Shown: one piece after another, positions 32,422 to 38,586 of the stretch
How the letters are laid out: every line of letters begins with the position of its first letter
Numbering within the stretch: the first letter of the stretch is position 1
Origin: Candidatus Planktophila limnetica
GTDB taxonomy: Bacteria > Actinomycetota > Actinomycetes > Nanopelagicales > Nanopelagicaceae
Length of the DNA: 64,000 bases
Reading direction: 5' to 3'
NCBI RefSeq assembly: GCF_002288365.1
Contig: NZ_CP016782.1
Span: forward strand, 62,001-126,000
Translations under genes and position numbers: made by a program
The notes under the pieces: generated by a model
The model's input: the letters and a program-made list of their open reading frames with translations, nothing else
Databases searched by the model: none
Told to the model about the DNA's origin: nothing

Positions 32422-32484
32422 CGTTCTTGATTTAAAACTCATTCACTGTTAATTTTCACTCGCTTACCAATTAGGAAACTAAAA

Positions 32485-32620
32485 ACGTAAGTGGCGTTGT
32501 GTCTAGCGAAGTCCGGTTAAATTCCGGCGCTGTCCCGCAACTGTAAATGATCGAAAGATCTAAGCCAGGTCGCCTGGCAGAACGCCGAAGTATCCGACCT
32601 CGGAGGAAGGTCGGGCCTCT
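32485..32620 (+). promoter_or_regulatory. Cobalamin riboswitch aptamer
   Basis: The leader contains the B12-box core AAGCCAGGTCGCCTGGC, the upstream GAAGTCCGGTTAAATTCCGG, and CTGTCCCGCAACTGTA. A closing helix pairs GGCGTT (32493-32498) with AACGCC (32581-32586). A hairpin CCGACC/GGTCGG (32594-32614) with a nine-base loop follows and could make the kissing loop. It precedes a B12 uptake and assembly operon and should switch that operon off when cobalamin is present. Confidence 0.92.
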
Positions 32621-32649: not shown

Positions 32650-32677
32650 CTCCCTCAAATTATTGAGGGAGTTTTTT
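32650..32677 (+). terminator. Riboswitch intrinsic terminator that also contains the btuF ribosome site
   Basis: CTCCCTCAA (32650-32658) pairs with TTGAGGGAG (32663-32671) around a 4-base loop, and six T residues (32672-32677) run directly into the ATG at 32678. The 3' arm contains GAGGGAG, the only Shine-Dalgarno-like sequence for btuF. Upstream GGAGGAAGG (32602-32610) can pair with 32645-32653 (two wobble pairs) as an antiterminator. Confidence 0.75.
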
Positions 32678-33595
32678 ATGTTTAAGGCACGTCTTCGTGC
32701 GCCTGCAATTGCAATCGTTGCAATTGTTTTCGCATCAGTTCTGGCAAGTCCCGCGTATGCGGCAGCAACACAGTATCCGCTTACTATTAAGTTCGGTGGT
32801 TACACCACAAAGATTGCTAAAAAACCAACAAAAATTATTTCGTTATCTCCTAGCGCAACTGAGATTTTTTATGCAGTAGGTGCTGGTTCACAAATTCTTG
32901 CAGTGGATAATCTTTCAAATTACCCAGAAGGTGCGCCGATTAGCGAGATAAGTGCATTCGAGCCAAACGTAGAAGCAATCTTGGCCAAAAAACCTGATCT
33001 TGTTTTGCTTTCTATTGACTCAACAAAGGCACCGCAGATTAGAAATGCGTTAGTGAAGTTGGGCATTCCTGTCTTAATGGAGAAAGCACCGGCAACACTT
33101 AAGGATGTCTATGCAGAGAACTCACTTCTGGCAAAGGTGACGGATCGACAGGATGGGGCCGTCAAGCTCAACGCTGCGATGGCTAAGTCAATTAAAGATG
33201 TTTTGGCTAAAGCTAAGAAGAGTTCAAAGATTCGTATATTCCACGAATTAGATGACACGTATTACTCGGTCACATCTAATACCTTTATTGGCAAGGTCTA
33301 TAAGGACTTTGGTGCTGTAAACATTGCTGATGCTGCATCAGGTGCCGATAACTCTGGTTACCCACAGTTATCTGCCGAGTATCTACTTAAGAGTGATCCA
33401 CAAGTAATTTTCTTAGCTGATGCTCAGTACGGCGTTACTGCTGATTCTGTTTCTAAGCGCGCTGGGTGGTCACAGATCAGCGCAGTGAAGAATAAAAAGA
33501 TTGTGGAGCTACCAGCAGATGTTCCATCTCGCTGGGGACCACGTCTTGTTGATTTCTATAAGTTAATCGGTGCTTCATTGGCAAAAGTTTCCTAA
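32678..33595 (+). CDS. btuF: Cobalamin ABC transporter substrate-binding protein
   Basis: The 305-residue protein is a type III periplasmic-binding-fold protein (KIISLSPSATEIFYAVGAG, VEAILAKKPDLVL, SAEYLLKSDPQVIFL). It is the first gene after the B12 riboswitch and precedes its permease and ATPase, so it most likely captures cobalamin or cobinamide outside the cell. The signal peptide ends at an ASPAYA-A type site and lacks a lipobox cysteine, which is unusual for a binding protein in a monoderm. The start at ATG 32678 abuts the terminator T-tract. It is joined to btuC by TAAATG. Confidence 0.88.
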   Translation: MFKARLRAPAIAIVAIVFASVLASPAYAAATQYPLTIKFGGYTTKIAKKPTKIISLSPSATEIFYAVGAGSQILAVDNLSNYPEGAPISEISAFEPNVEAILAKKPDLVLLSIDSTKAPQIRNALVKLGIPVLMEKAPATLKDVYAENSLLAKVTDRQDGAVKLNAAMAKSIKDVLAKAKKSSKIRIFHELDDTYYSVTSNTFIGKVYKDFGAVNIADAASGADNSGYPQLSAEYLLKSDPQVIFLADAQYGVTADSVSKRAGWSQISAVKNKKIVELPADVPSRWGPRLVDFYKLIGASLAKVS

Positions 33596-34609
33596 ATGAA
33601 AAATCAAGAGATCGACCGAATCTGGCACTGGCGCACAACTCTATTTGTGGGCATCTTGCTCGCATTTGTGTTGTTGCTCGGTGTCTCTTTCGGTCCGATC
33701 TCTTTGGACTTCATGAAAATTTTGCGCACACTCTTTGGTTTAAGCGGTGGATTGCAAGATGAAGAAAAGATTCTCTTCTTGCAACTCCGCCTGCCAAGAG
33801 TTTTACTAGCAGCACTCGTTGGTGCGGCGCTTGCAACTAGTGGTGCGGTCTATCAAACGGTTTTCCGCAATCCACTTGCTGATCCATATCTGTTGGGTGC
33901 AGCAGCAGGTGCTGGTCTCGGAGCAACACTTGCACTAACTGGCGGCACACAAAGTTTTTATGCAGCACTTCCACTATTCGCTTTTCTTGGGGGCGTTTTG
34001 GCTGTTGCTGCAACATTCATGATTTCAGGAAGAGCATTTGCAGATCCTGCAACGCTTTTATTATCAGGAATCGCTATTGGCTCTTTTGCAACTGCTGTGC
34101 AGACGTATTTGCAACAACGCAACAGTGAAGTCCTGCGCCCCGTCTATTCATGGATCTTGGGGCAGCTGACGGTCGCTGATTGGCAAGTTGTTAAGTGGGC
34201 CAGTATCTATATCTTGCTGGCGCTAGTGATTTTGATTCGTATGTCGCGTTTATTGGATGGCTTGCTACTCAGTGACGAAGAAGCTTTCTCGCTCGGTATT
34301 TCTCCAAATAAAATACGAATCATCGCAATAGGCGCTGCAACCCTTGCAACTGCAACAGCCGTATCTGCTAGTGGTCTGATCGGCTTCGTCGGAATCGTTG
34401 TTCCGCACTTAGTTCGTGGGCTTACAAAGCGAGCAACCAACAGAGTTTTATTTACGGTGGCACTCTCGGGTGCCGCGTTCTTAGTTCTTGCAGATCTTGG
34501 TGCACGCACCTTGTTATCTCCTGCGGAATTACCTATCGGTGTCATCACTGCCTTTGTTGGCGCACCATTTCTTTTATTCGTACTACGAGCAAAGAGAGTC
34601 CTTAAATGA
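33596..34609 (+). CDS. btuC: Cobalamin ABC transporter permease (FecCD family)
   Basis: A 337-residue polytopic permease with about ten hydrophobic helices. Family landmarks are LRLPRVLLAALVGAALATSGAVYQ, NPLADPYLLGAAAGAG and the cytoplasmic coupling region near LGISPNKIR, then GFVGIVVPHLVR. The FecCD family carries Fe-siderophores or B12; the riboswitch and downstream cob genes point to B12. The start follows the btuF stop directly and the end overlaps the ATPase gene by 4 bases. Confidence 0.9.
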   Translation: MKNQEIDRIWHWRTTLFVGILLAFVLLLGVSFGPISLDFMKILRTLFGLSGGLQDEEKILFLQLRLPRVLLAALVGAALATSGAVYQTVFRNPLADPYLLGAAAGAGLGATLALTGGTQSFYAALPLFAFLGGVLAVAATFMISGRAFADPATLLLSGIAIGSFATAVQTYLQQRNSEVLRPVYSWILGQLTVADWQVVKWASIYILLALVILIRMSRLLDGLLLSDEEAFSLGISPNKIRIIAIGAATLATATAVSASGLIGFVGIVVPHLVRGLTKRATNRVLFTVALSGAAFLVLADLGARTLLSPAELPIGVITAFVGAPFLLFVLRAKRVLK

Positions 34610-35364
34610 TCGAAATCAAAAACCTATCCGTGCGCTATGGCGATTTTTATGCACTGGACCACATCACATTAGATATCCCCCGTGGTTCGTGGACATGTCT
34701 TGTTGGTCCTAATGGTGCGGGTAAAACAACTTTCTTAAGAACGCTGCTTGGCAATAAGGCATACGACGGATCAATCACTATCGATGGCCTTGAGGTCTAC
34801 AAGAATTTACGTAACGTCGCATTTGTTCCGCAACGTCCAGAGATTCCAGCAGGTATGGACGTTGCAGAGTATGTGATGCTCGGACGTGCACGCCTGGATG
34901 GATGGGGACGAGAATCTCGTACAAGTCGACGTTTAGTGCAACAAATACTTGAGCAGATGCAACTGTCTGGACTGCGCCACCAATTAGTTACGCAATTATC
35001 TGGCGGCGAAATGCAACGGGTACTGATTGCTCGCGCGCTTGTGCAAGAACCAGAGTTAATGATTTTGGATGAACCAACTTCAGCACTTGATTTGCACCAC
35101 CAGATTTCAACACTGAATCACATTGAAGGAATGCAAAACAATGGCGTCACCATCGTTTCAACGATGCATGACATCACACTGGGTGCGATGTATGCAGAAC
35201 GAATTGTCATTATGCAAAACGGCAAGGTGTTACTAGACGGACCTTCAAATACGGTGATTCATTCACCAGAACTCAAGCACGCATTTGATGACGGAATCAC
35301 AATTCACACTCTGGACAATGGTCGTCCAGTAATTGTTGCTACAAAGAATTCACTACAGATATGA
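34606..35364 (+). CDS. btuD: Cobalamin ABC transporter ATPase
   Basis: The 252-residue ATPase has Walker A GPNGAGKTT, the Q-loop FVPQRPE, the signature LSGGEMQR, Walker B MILDEPTSALD and the switch histidine in STMHD. It powers the BtuC permease. It overlaps btuC by 4 bases and cobU by 4 bases, indicating strict co-translation. Confidence 0.92.
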   Translation: MIEIKNLSVRYGDFYALDHITLDIPRGSWTCLVGPNGAGKTTFLRTLLGNKAYDGSITIDGLEVYKNLRNVAFVPQRPEIPAGMDVAEYVMLGRARLDGWGRESRTSRRLVQQILEQMQLSGLRHQLVTQLSGGEMQRVLIARALVQEPELMILDEPTSALDLHHQISTLNHIEGMQNNGVTIVSTMHDITLGAMYAERIVIMQNGKVLLDGPSNTVIHSPELKHAFDDGITIHTLDNGRPVIVATKNSLQI

Positions 35365-35864
35365 GCATCTATTTTGTTGCAGGCGGCGCCCGAAGCGGCA
35401 AGAGCCGTAAAGGTGAAGAACTAGCGCTGACATTATCTGGGGCAAGCAAGCCGATCTTTATTGCAACTGCTGAAGCAGTAGATGATGAGATGACTAAGCG
35501 AATTCAAAAACACCAGAATGATCGAGGTGATGCGTTTTCTTTAGTAGAAGAACCAAAGAATTTAAGCAAAGCACTGAAAGAAATAGATACCCATGCAACG
35601 GTTTTAGTGGACTGCCTGACATTATGGTTATCAAATAACATGATGGGCGAAGGCAGTGATTCAAATGAATCTGTGATTGCCGCGGCCCGCGCACGCAAAG
35701 GTGCAACTATTTTTATTAGCAATGAAGTAGGCGAAGGCATTGTTCCGATGCACCCGGTTTCGCGAGAATTTCGCGATCTCTCAGGAATCATGAATCAACA
35801 ATTTGCTCAAGCGGCGGAGAAGGTTTATTTCATGAAATTCGGTATTGCCCAGGAATTAAAATGA
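35361..35864 (+). CDS. cobU: Adenosylcobinamide kinase/guanylyltransferase
   Basis: CobU phosphorylates adenosylcobinamide and transfers GMP to give AdoCbi-GDP. The 167-residue protein has the P-loop AGGARSGKS near the N-terminus, the KRIQKHQNDRG segment containing the guanylylated histidine, and the NEVGEGIVPMHPVSREFRD motif. It overlaps btuD and cobS by 4 bases on each side. Confidence 0.92.
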   Translation: MSIYFVAGGARSGKSRKGEELALTLSGASKPIFIATAEAVDDEMTKRIQKHQNDRGDAFSLVEEPKNLSKALKEIDTHATVLVDCLTLWLSNNMMGEGSDSNESVIAAARARKGATIFISNEVGEGIVPMHPVSREFRDLSGIMNQQFAQAAEKVYFMKFGIAQELK

Positions 35865-36619
35865 TTAATGACATCAAAGTAGCTTTTGCTTTTCTTACCC
35901 GAATTCCAATTGGGCACAAGCCAGATATTTCAATTCAGCGCAGCGCTGTCTGGTTTCCCTTTGTTGGTTGGGTAATCGGTGGCGTTACAGGAATTCTTTT
36001 TTACTTTTTATCTCAAGGCATACCAACTTTACCAGCTGCTGCGATAACGATTCTATTTTCAACACTTGTGACAGGTGGATTTCATCAAGATGGGTTAGCC
36101 GATACTTTTGATGGACTTGTTGGTGGATGGACACCGGAAGATCGCTTGCGAATTCTTAAGGATTCACGGCATGGCACATACGGAGTACTTTCAATTGTTT
36201 TACAGTTGATTATTCAAATTTCCTTACTTTCAACTTTGTCTCCAAAAGTTGGCTTACTTGCAATTATCACTGCGCACTCGCTGGGTCGGTTGGTTCCGAT
36301 TTATTTCATGATGGCTCCTGCTGTTCCGTCACACGAAGGAATGGGTGCCACATACTCTCGTGCGGTGCGCGGGCGAGACGTACTTGCATCCACCGTGCTG
36401 ACGATTGTTTTGCTCTTTGGGTTAATTGGCAGTCATCTATTTATTGCAGCCGCAATTGTCGCGGTCGTTGGTTTTGTTTTCTTGAGCTACGTTAAGAAGA
36501 AAATTGGTGGCGTTCTTGGTGATGTGTTGGGGGCATCCGAACAAATTGCCGAAAGCTTCATACTTCTTTACTTTGTTGTGATTCTGACTCATTCCATTTG
36601 GTTGTCATGGCTGATTTAG
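35861..36619 (+). CDS. cobS: Adenosylcobinamide-GDP ribazoletransferase
   Basis: CobS joins AdoCbi-GDP to alpha-ribazole (or its 5'-phosphate) at the membrane. The 252-residue protein has multiple hydrophobic helices and the conserved motifs FLTRIPIG, GGFHQDGLADTFDG and KDSRHGTYG. The end overlaps the start of the HAD-CobT gene by 13 bases. Confidence 0.92.
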   Translation: MINDIKVAFAFLTRIPIGHKPDISIQRSAVWFPFVGWVIGGVTGILFYFLSQGIPTLPAAAITILFSTLVTGGFHQDGLADTFDGLVGGWTPEDRLRILKDSRHGTYGVLSIVLQLIIQISLLSTLSPKVGLLAIITAHSLGRLVPIYFMMAPAVPSHEGMGATYSRAVRGRDVLASTVLTIVLLFGLIGSHLFIAAAIVAVVGFVFLSYVKKKIGGVLGDVLGASEQIAESFILLYFVVILTHSIWLSWLI

Positions 36620-38100
36620 TTAAGGCCAGATTTGATGCTGTCTTATTTGATCTAGGTAATACTTTAATTAAACAAGAAAATCCTGGAGTGCCTTACGAAT
36701 CACTGGCGGTTGAGTTACTTCCGGGCGTTGAGCAACTGCTTAAAGAGTTGTACGGGCAAGTAAAGATTGGCATAGTTTCAAATACGCAGACGATTACTGC
36801 AGGCGATATTAAAAAGAAGCTAGCGATTGTTGGAATTGATCATTACTTTGATGTTGTTATTGCTACCGGTGAATTAGGCATTCACAAGCCAGATCCAGCT
36901 CCGATTGTTGCGGCAATCAAGGCATTGGATATAAAAGCAGAGCGCACAATTTATGTAGGCGATATAGAAACAGATTTACAGGCAGCGAACTCTTCTGGTA
37001 CTGCCTTTGCATACACAGGGCCTGATATTTATCAGTCAATGCATCAATACTTATTACACAGTGATTCTGCACTCGATCGTGCACTGCACACGCAACCAAC
37101 GTACTCACAAGCACATGTAGATGCCGTACAAAAAGAATTCGATGGTTTGGCAAAGCCAGTTGGATCACTTGGCAAATTAGAAAAAGTTGCAGCACAGATT
37201 GCAGGAATTACACATTCGCACACACCAACTATTGACCCCGCTGCAATTGCCGTCTTTGGTGGCGATCACGGAATTGCAGCTGATGACTCTGTTACTCCGT
37301 GGCCACAAGCGATTACAGGAATGATGCTGGAAGTTATGGGAGATAAGAAAGCTGCTGTCTCTGTTTTGGCGGATGTTGCTGACGTGTACTGCCAATACAT
37401 AAATGTTGGCGCGGTTAGTGACTCTAAGTCACGTGCTGTTCGCAACGAGAGAGTGAAAAGCGGGACGCAAGATGTTCGCACGGATGCTGCAATGACGCGA
37501 GAAGAAGTTATCGCTGCAATGAACGTTGGCGCACAAACTGCTGAAAGATTAATCGCCGGTGGTTCAAGGTCACTCTGTACTGGCGAAGTGGGAATTGGAA
37601 ACACAACGCCGTCAGCAGCGTTGATTGCCCACTTCGCAAATGCAAATGCGCAGGAAGTTACCGGACGCGGCTCAGGAATTGATGATGCGACTTATGTACG
37701 GAAAGTAGAAATCGTCGAGCAATTGATTAATAAAACAAAATCAACAACAGATCCAATTGATGTTCTTGCTCAAATCGGCGGTTTAGAAATAGCTGCACTC
37801 ACTGGCTACATACTGCGCACAACATCTCTACAAATACCGGTTCTATTAGATGGTGTAATCACACTCGCGGCAGCAACAGTGGCAGAAGCAATGAAACCAA
37901 ACACAACAAGCTTTCTTATTGCTGCACATTGTTCTTCCGAACCAGGATCAAAAATTGCACTAAAGCACCTCGGACTAAACCCGCTTCTAGATTTAGATTT
38001 ACGACTTGGCGAAGGCACCGGTGCTTTGTTATCAATACCTATTATTAGATCGGCATGTCAGGCACTTTCTCGCATGGCTCGGATCTCTGATCTGCTTTAG
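36607..38100 (+). CDS. cobT: HAD-domain / CobT fusion (DMB phosphoribosyltransferase)
   Basis: A 497-residue two-domain protein. Residues 1 to about 150 are a HAD-superfamily domain: motif I FDLGNT (Asp15), motif II in GIVSNT, motif III and IV as HKPDPAP and YVGDIETD. From about residue 165 the sequence is CobT, which makes alpha-ribazole-5'-phosphate from DMB. The evidence is KPVGSLGKLE, FGGDHGIAADD, GEVGIGNTTPSAA and the catalytic glutamate region RLGEGTGALL. The CobT part is of normal length. The operon has no cobC phosphatase, so the HAD part could supply that step. Against this, HAD motif I lacks the usual second aspartate (DLGNT, not DxDxT). ATG 36607 is chosen over the TTG three codons earlier. 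Confidence 0.88.
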   Translation: MADLVKARFDAVLFDLGNTLIKQENPGVPYESLAVELLPGVEQLLKELYGQVKIGIVSNTQTITAGDIKKKLAIVGIDHYFDVVIATGELGIHKPDPAPIVAAIKALDIKAERTIYVGDIETDLQAANSSGTAFAYTGPDIYQSMHQYLLHSDSALDRALHTQPTYSQAHVDAVQKEFDGLAKPVGSLGKLEKVAAQIAGITHSHTPTIDPAAIAVFGGDHGIAADDSVTPWPQAITGMMLEVMGDKKAAVSVLADVADVYCQYINVGAVSDSKSRAVRNERVKSGTQDVRTDAAMTREEVIAAMNVGAQTAERLIAGGSRSLCTGEVGIGNTTPSAALIAHFANANAQEVTGRGSGIDDATYVRKVEIVEQLINKTKSTTDPIDVLAQIGGLEIAALTGYILRTTSLQIPVLLDGVITLAAATVAEAMKPNTTSFLIAAHCSSEPGSKIALKHLGLNPLLDLDLRLGEGTGALLSIPIIRSACQALSRMARISDLL

Positions 38101-38199
38101 AACCATTTATTCACAGAGGATTACCAACCAATTCACCCTTGTGCCCCTTTTAAATCAAGGGTTTCTTGCTATTCTTTTGCCATTCCTATGGAGGTATCT

Positions 38200-38586
38200 A
38201 TGCTTCGCAAGATTGTTATCGCTTCAGTTCTAGGCCTATTTTTAGCCACTTCAGTTGTCACACCAGCATCGGCTGCGACAATCAAGACTGGTACTTCCTG
38301 CGCAAAGGAAGGTTCAGTGAAGAAGGTTGGCAAAAAGGTCTACCTCTGTGGCAAGAACCCATTCGTCACACCAACAAAGAACACTTGGGCCCTAAAGACC
38401 TGTCTTGAGGGTTACGACAGTTACATCTCCATCAAAGATGATCTAATCCCACAGGCTATGGACATGCTTGGCCTTTTGGGTGGAGCAGACAAAATCACTC
38501 AACAGGCTGAGATCGACACGATGACATCGGATAACGTCCTTGTGCTCAACGCCCTGAAGACAAAATGGTGTAAAAAAGGCGCCTAA
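38200..38586 (+). CDS. Small secreted protein with a Cys module
   Basis: The 128-residue protein begins with a signal peptide (MLRKIVIASVLGLFLATS, cleavage near ASA-A). Immediately after it is a short module, TIKTGTSCAKEGSVKKVGKKVYLC, similar to the one after the signal peptide of the zincin at 9.2 kb. The rest is helical with two further cysteines. The function is unknown. The ATG at 38200 has a GGAGG ribosome site 5 bases upstream. It lies between the B12 operon and the sigma-factor gene and has its own 99-base upstream gap. Confidence 0.72.
   Translation: MLRKIVIASVLGLFLATSVVTPASAATIKTGTSCAKEGSVKKVGKKVYLCGKNPFVTPTKNTWALKTCLEGYDSYISIKDDLIPQAMDMLGLLGGADKITQQAEIDTMTSDNVLVLNALKTKWCKKGA

Follow-up and report, generated by a model that had tools for sequence, protein, structure and literature searches.

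The last gene of a six-gene B12 operon in Candidatus Planktophila limnetica joins a HAD-superfamily domain to CobT, which raises the question of what the HAD domain contributes to cobamide assembly. The operon lies in a stretch of 64,000 nucleotides analysed as a whole (the window), and an AdoCbl (B12) riboswitch is located upstream of its first gene (32480..32618; Rfam RF01482, 61.7 bits, cut-off 50). The gene order is btuF-btuC-btuD-cobU-cobS-HAD/cobT, with neighbours abutting or overlapping by a few bases; the riboswitch, the genes, and the domains and motifs described below are all on the + strand. The genes encode a btuF-like substrate-binding protein (32663..33595; Peripla_BP_2, 1.3e-33), a btuC-like permease (33596..34609; FecCD, 9.2e-86), a btuD-like ATPase (34606..35364; ABC_tran, 2.6e-30), the AdoCbi kinase/guanylyltransferase CobU (35361..35864; NF004469, 166 bits, cut-off 161), the AdoCbi-GDP ribazoletransferase CobS (35861..36619; TIGR00317, 134 bits, cut-off 110) and the HAD-CobT fusion (36607..38100; Pfam, NCBIfam and structure model). 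No CobC-family phosphatase gene is present among the six. An initial sequence-only reading had recognised the fusion and proposed that its HAD domain supplies the missing CobC activity; the fusion itself is borne out by the open reading frame, the Pfam and NCBIfam matches and its recurrence in other genomes, and the absence of cobC holds for the operon only. Directly after the operon is a gene for a small predicted secreted protein (38188-38586; 132 aa) with no Pfam match.

The fusion ORF extends from an ATG at 36607 to 38100 and is open without a stop over 497 codons, with an alternative TTG start at 36598 giving a 500-aa reading (36598-38100). Its CobT domain (residues 167-494; 37105..38088) matches Pfam DBI_PRT/CobT at 2.7e-109 (residues 170-497 of the 500-aa reading) and is identified as CobT by the NCBIfam profile cobT_DBIPRT (TIGR03160; 358 bits, cut-off 319), and its best Foldseek match is the CobT structure 1j33 (TM 0.94 on the target). 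The DHG and GIGNTT motifs are conserved in the alignment, as is the G-E-G motif containing the catalytic Glu469 (38011..38013), in which G468, E469 and G470 are invariant in 13 fusions; from the motif and known CobT structures we take Glu469 to be the counterpart of E317 of Salmonella CobT. The catalytic motifs are thus intact, as had been read from the sequence. AlphaFold, given a 41-row alignment, models the whole chain with confidence as a two-domain protein (pLDDT 95.9, pTM 0.94), and Foldseek on this model returns CobT structures first and then HAD hydrolases, including MtlD and the drimenol synthase AsDMS.

The HAD domain occupies residues 1 to about 140 (36607..37026) and is recognised by Pfam (HAD_2, 2.9e-21), by alignment, in the AlphaFold model and by Foldseek matches to HAD hydrolases. 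It has the defining features of the superfamily, a Rossmannoid core with an Asp nucleophile (motif I), a Ser/Thr (motif II), a Lys (motif III) and an acid (motif IV), and its fold is like those of HAD-IA cores, but the C1 cap is absent. Only 43 residues separate motifs I and II (D15-S58), compared with 101 in YihX (D6-S107), and we do not claim membership of the YihX family for a capless domain when YihX has a cap. Motif I is D15-L-G-N-T19 (36649..36663), with D15 as nucleophile and Gly17 where most HADs have Asp; motif II is S58-N59 (36778..36783), with Ser or Thr at the S58 position in all aligned fusions; motif III is K94 (36886..36888); and motif IV is D119-xxx-D123 (36961..36975), in which D119 is replaced by Asn in two of 13 fusions. 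The invariant HAD columns of the 13-row alignment, D15, G17, T19, K94 and D123, are the catalytic columns. No match to the CobC histidine phosphatase profiles (PF00300 / TIGR03162) was found in the fusion protein.

The sequence-only reading had found the HAD motifs recognisable, which the alignment confirms for motifs I-IV, and had cautioned that the missing second aspartate of motif I might signify another activity or a regulatory role. The replacement itself is confirmed: Gly takes the place of the second Asp of the canonical DxD motif in each of the 13 aligned fusions as well as in L219 and L103, motif I reads D-x-G-[GN]-T in all 15 cobamide-linked HADs (14 fused and one stand-alone), and the motifs across the actinobacterial fusions are not degenerate. 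A D-x-G motif I with intact motifs II-IV is the pattern of the DxG-type HAD phosphatases, among them E. coli YihX (motif I DLGNV), named as a glucose-1-phosphate phosphatase, and the HAD of AsDMS. In AsDMS an N-terminal HAD with motif D43-L44-G45 is fused to a terpene cyclase and is a proven Mg-dependent phosphatase (PMC12365925), with a kcat of 0.56 per s on the monophosphate; the D43A, G45A, K171A, D195A and D196A mutants are dead, and in the crystal structure the Gly45 backbone carbonyl is on the metal (PMC12365925). This proof of activity in a synthase-linked DxG HAD weakens the doubt about phosphatase activity, and we do not accept that the domain is dead for want of the second Asp. In the fused HAD the backbone carbonyl of the invariant Gly could serve the metal site in the same way.

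HAD-CobT fusions recur across the Actinomycetota, with at least 14 distinct examples including that in the window. They are present in genomes G284, G640, G601, G679, G610 and G549, and in six more contigs (L135, L137, L139, L142, L143 and L152) that include Acidiferrimicrobium sp. IK, Aquihabitans sp. G128 and an uncultured Acidimicrobiaceae contig. The same architecture in 13 other genomes, at 37-54% identity, rules out a chance, sequencing or frame artefact. The fusion is nevertheless infrequent within the order, occurring in one of its 151 genomes and in two of 135 in the genus. Genome G717, of the same genus, has a HAD-CobT fusion at 50% identity; it also has a second CobT end, 62% identical to that in the window and cut at a contig end (G717:C23:2-313; L220/L222), which may reflect two copies or a mixture of strains. 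Every close match listed by a GTDB-wide scan (E 2e-18 or better) either has CobT as its fusion partner or lies within a cob cluster, and L152, at 2e-12, is also fused. The stand-alone copy (L103:6732-7262, the same as L136) is in genome G678, inside a cob cluster with SUMT, a CobD-like protein, an aminotransferase, CobU and CobS near the HAD; no CobT match was found in that genome.

In a tree of 60 HADs the 15 cobamide-linked domains form one clade (98/91 support; 98% of bootstrap trees) apart from other HADs, and on this basis the HAD is, by sequence, a dedicated cobamide subfamily; the analysis supports its being a conserved and dedicated companion of CobT whose catalytic motifs are intact. 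The fused and unfused CobT halves interleave in their own tree with 5-7 label changes, and about half of the related CobTs lack the HAD; the pattern fits best with a HAD partner that arose once and was later lost repeatedly (or with some transfer). Since most unfused CobTs of the same clade have neither a HAD nor a cobC within about 8 kb, the HAD is judged from these sequences to be useful but not obligatory, and dispensable. No stand-alone HAD was found beside an unfused CobT of this clade, and a cobC-like gene was seen only once in the stretches read around unfused members of the CobT group, a second match (L109) accompanying a CobT that lies outside the group. By hand count a cobC-like gene is near cobT at none of 13 fused and four of 20 unfused loci of G284's class, a difference that is not significant (one-sided chance about 0.12) and includes some stretches that end at contig ends; an association of cobC with unfused rather than fused cobT is therefore not supported.

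Other members of the same family as the window have different arrangements. Genome G129 (L039) has cobU-cobS-cobT without a HAD, its CobT being on a very long branch. Genome G131 has another solution: its B12 operon (L109/L040, 829-3130) encodes a nitroreductase (BluB-like)-CobT fusion, CobS, BtuC and, as a protein of its own, a histidine phosphatase resembling CobC. Where unfused CobT frames are long, the only Pfam domain found in their N-terminal extensions is the nitroreductase of L046 and L109.

The premise that CobC is missing does not extend to the genome as a whole (G000; one 1.33 Mb contig, 99.8% complete). There are six histidine phosphatase genes (seven matches, the seventh being a second stretch of one gene), and L002 encodes a 361-aa protein in which RNase HI is joined to a phosphatase whose RHG and catalytic His/Glu motifs are intact; it scores 377 bits against NF005567 'bifunctional RNase H/acid phosphatase' (cut-off 326). 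The sequence-only reading had itself named a genuine cobC elsewhere in the genome as a finding that would overturn it, and the explanation that the HAD is present because the genome lacks CobC is rejected as stated. The other gene type that it named, CobZ (PgpA-like, PF04608), has no match in G000; four control genomes do match. Deletion of MSMEG_4305, the M. smegmatis homologue of L002, lowers B12 in acidic and starved cultures and slows, but does not abolish, growth on propionate (PMC7466739). By hand count, about 91 of 101 genomes of the order carry the RNase HI-CobC at near full length; it occurs also in genomes without CobT, which is found in four of 151. Its presence does not track the cobamide pathway, as for a generalist candidate, and so leaves room for a cobamide role of the HAD, with which its activity in G000 probably overlaps in part. 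In three complete genomes of genus g3 (G008, G011 and G019) the RNase HI-CobC has shrunk to RNase H alone (about 134 aa).

We favour, at a probability of roughly 0.58, the reading that the HAD of the fusion is a Mg-dependent phosphatase acting on the CobT product alpha-ribazole-5'-phosphate or on AdoCbl-5'-phosphate; both the hydrolysis and the choice of phosphate are inferred from sequence, the structure model and analogy. The CobT half would convert 5,6-dimethylbenzimidazole (or a similar base) and nicotinate mononucleotide to alpha-ribazole-5'-phosphate, and the HAD half, a capless Mg2+-dependent aspartyl phosphatase, would take off the 5'-phosphate, and so be CobC-like in action without homology to CobC. 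Capless HADs act on large substrates, or have a partner that closes the active site, and the CobT product and the corrinoid AdoCbl-5'-phosphate would each suit. The likeliest substrate would be alpha-ribazole-5'-phosphate, before or during passage to CobS, with AdoCbl-5'-phosphate, after CobS, as the alternative. The operon context and its AdoCbl riboswitch support a phosphatase, and the MtlD and AsDMS matches of the whole model and, by analogy, the CobC-like phosphatase gene in the equivalent operon of G131 point the same way. Further support comes from the single clade of cobamide-linked HADs, the invariant catalytic residues, the proven activity of AsDMS and the similarity to AlnB. Against activity, the first motif IV acid is Asn in two of the 13 fusions, and the equivalent D196 is essential in AsDMS; the intact RNase HI-CobC candidate, the many unfused CobTs that lack the HAD and the HAD-less cobU-cobS-cobT locus of G129 also count against this reading, and an obligate channel for the CobT product is harder to reconcile with the stand-alone HAD, whose cob cluster has no CobT.

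The most serious competitor, which we consider unlikely, is that the HAD has little or no catalytic activity and is a structural or regulatory part of CobT (dimer contact, substrate lid or phosphate sensor), with the RNase HI-CobC performing the dephosphorylation. The effect of the RNase HI-CobC homologue on B12 levels in M. smegmatis (PMC7466739), the repeated loss of the HAD and the confident, fixed two-domain model all speak for this, and there is a precedent in the AstC terpene cyclase, whose HAD-like domain has no phosphatase activity of its own and serves solely to modulate the cyclase (PMC13244436). AstC, however, has lost its nucleophile (Glu for Asp), whereas the nucleophile, the Lys and a motif IV acid are invariant in the 13 fusions. 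The same conservation, across several families and at 37-54% identity, makes it very improbable that the fused HAD is a neutral remnant in the course of loss while the RNase HI-CobC alone is the physiological CobC, since active-site residues would then drift; absence of the HAD from about half of the related CobTs and the wide distribution of full-length RNase HI-CobC in the order speak for such a leftover, but a phosphatase found also in genomes without CobT is not tied to the pathway.

HAD phosphatases are often promiscuous, and with a capless site substrate size is little guide, so the HAD could be an active phosphatase for another substrate tied to base activation, such as nicotinate mononucleotide, a wrong-base alpha-ribotide or a nucleotide competing at CobT, in a clean-up or regulatory capacity. 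We regard this as somewhat less probable than a structural or regulatory HAD: hydrolysis of nicotinate mononucleotide would destroy the substrate of its own partner, and the strict link to cobamide loci among the matches listed favours a pathway intermediate. More broadly, the HAD phosphatase reading admits a tentative extension, held at slightly less than even odds, in which a dedicated capless DxG subfamily joined to CobT is a third, HAD-type non-orthologous CobC replacement in Actinomycetota; one protein would then take base and NaMN to dephosphorylated alpha-ribazole, changing the order of the last B12 steps.

The genome also encodes a PduO-type adenosyltransferase and, at L215:1225-3180 (G000:C1 about 931150-933105), a corrinoid-binding protein followed by a short gene and then an MTHFR gene, likely a B12-dependent methyl-transfer system in a streamlined genome. 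On the strength of these genes the organism probably both remodels and uses B12. A MerR-type regulator with a weak B12-binding domain is encoded at L216:934-1845. Which protein performs the last dephosphorylation in B12 assembly is poorly settled for many actinobacteria, and whether the step precedes or follows CobS has been debated; a dedicated CobT-fused phosphatase, if true, would settle the step order in these organisms and provide a simple sequence marker. AsDMS and MtlD would then be joined by another biosynthetic system in which a HAD phosphatase is attached to the maker of a phosphate ester, making two, AsDMS included, that have a functional motif I lacking the second Asp.

No description of a HAD-CobT fusion was found in the open-access literature searched, although each of its elements has relatives. 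The closest in design are AsDMS and the HAD-terpene cyclases, in which an N-terminal DxG HAD is fused to the maker of a phosphorylated intermediate and dephosphorylation is proven (PMC12365925, PMC9128629); there a YihX-like HAD has a terpene cyclase as its partner, whereas here a capless HAD is joined to CobT. MtlD (mannitol-1-phosphate dehydrogenase/phosphatase) likewise has a HAD phosphatase fused to the maker of a phosphate ester, with another partner in another pathway. AlnB, the alnumycin P phosphatase, is a HAD similar in profile (4ex6, found by profile search) and fold (4ex7, by Foldseek) that cleaves the 5'-phosphate off a ribose carried by an aromatic ring, but it is a separate protein acting on a C-glycoside in a polyketide pathway. 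CobC shares the proposed reaction and pathway place (alpha-ribazole / adenosylcobalamin-5'-phosphate phosphatase) and is of the histidine phosphatase family, unrelated in fold and chemistry to a metal-dependent aspartyl HAD. RNase HI-CobC (Rv2228c / MSMEG_4305; NF005567) is similarly a phosphatase of actinobacteria that is joined to a second enzyme and has been linked to B12 synthesis (PMC7466739), although it is a histidine phosphatase, its partner is an RNase H, and it is near-universal in the order with or without CobT. CobT is also fused to a neighbouring step of its own pathway in BluB-CobT2 of Propionibacterium freudenreichii (PMC4657239) and in the nitroreductase-CobT proteins seen here in G131 and L046, where the N-terminal domain is a nitroreductase (base synthesis), not a HAD. 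Archaeal CobZ is a known non-orthologous replacement of CobC (PMC8123684). CobT fusions, HAD-synthase fusions and non-orthologous CobC replacements are thus all known kinds.
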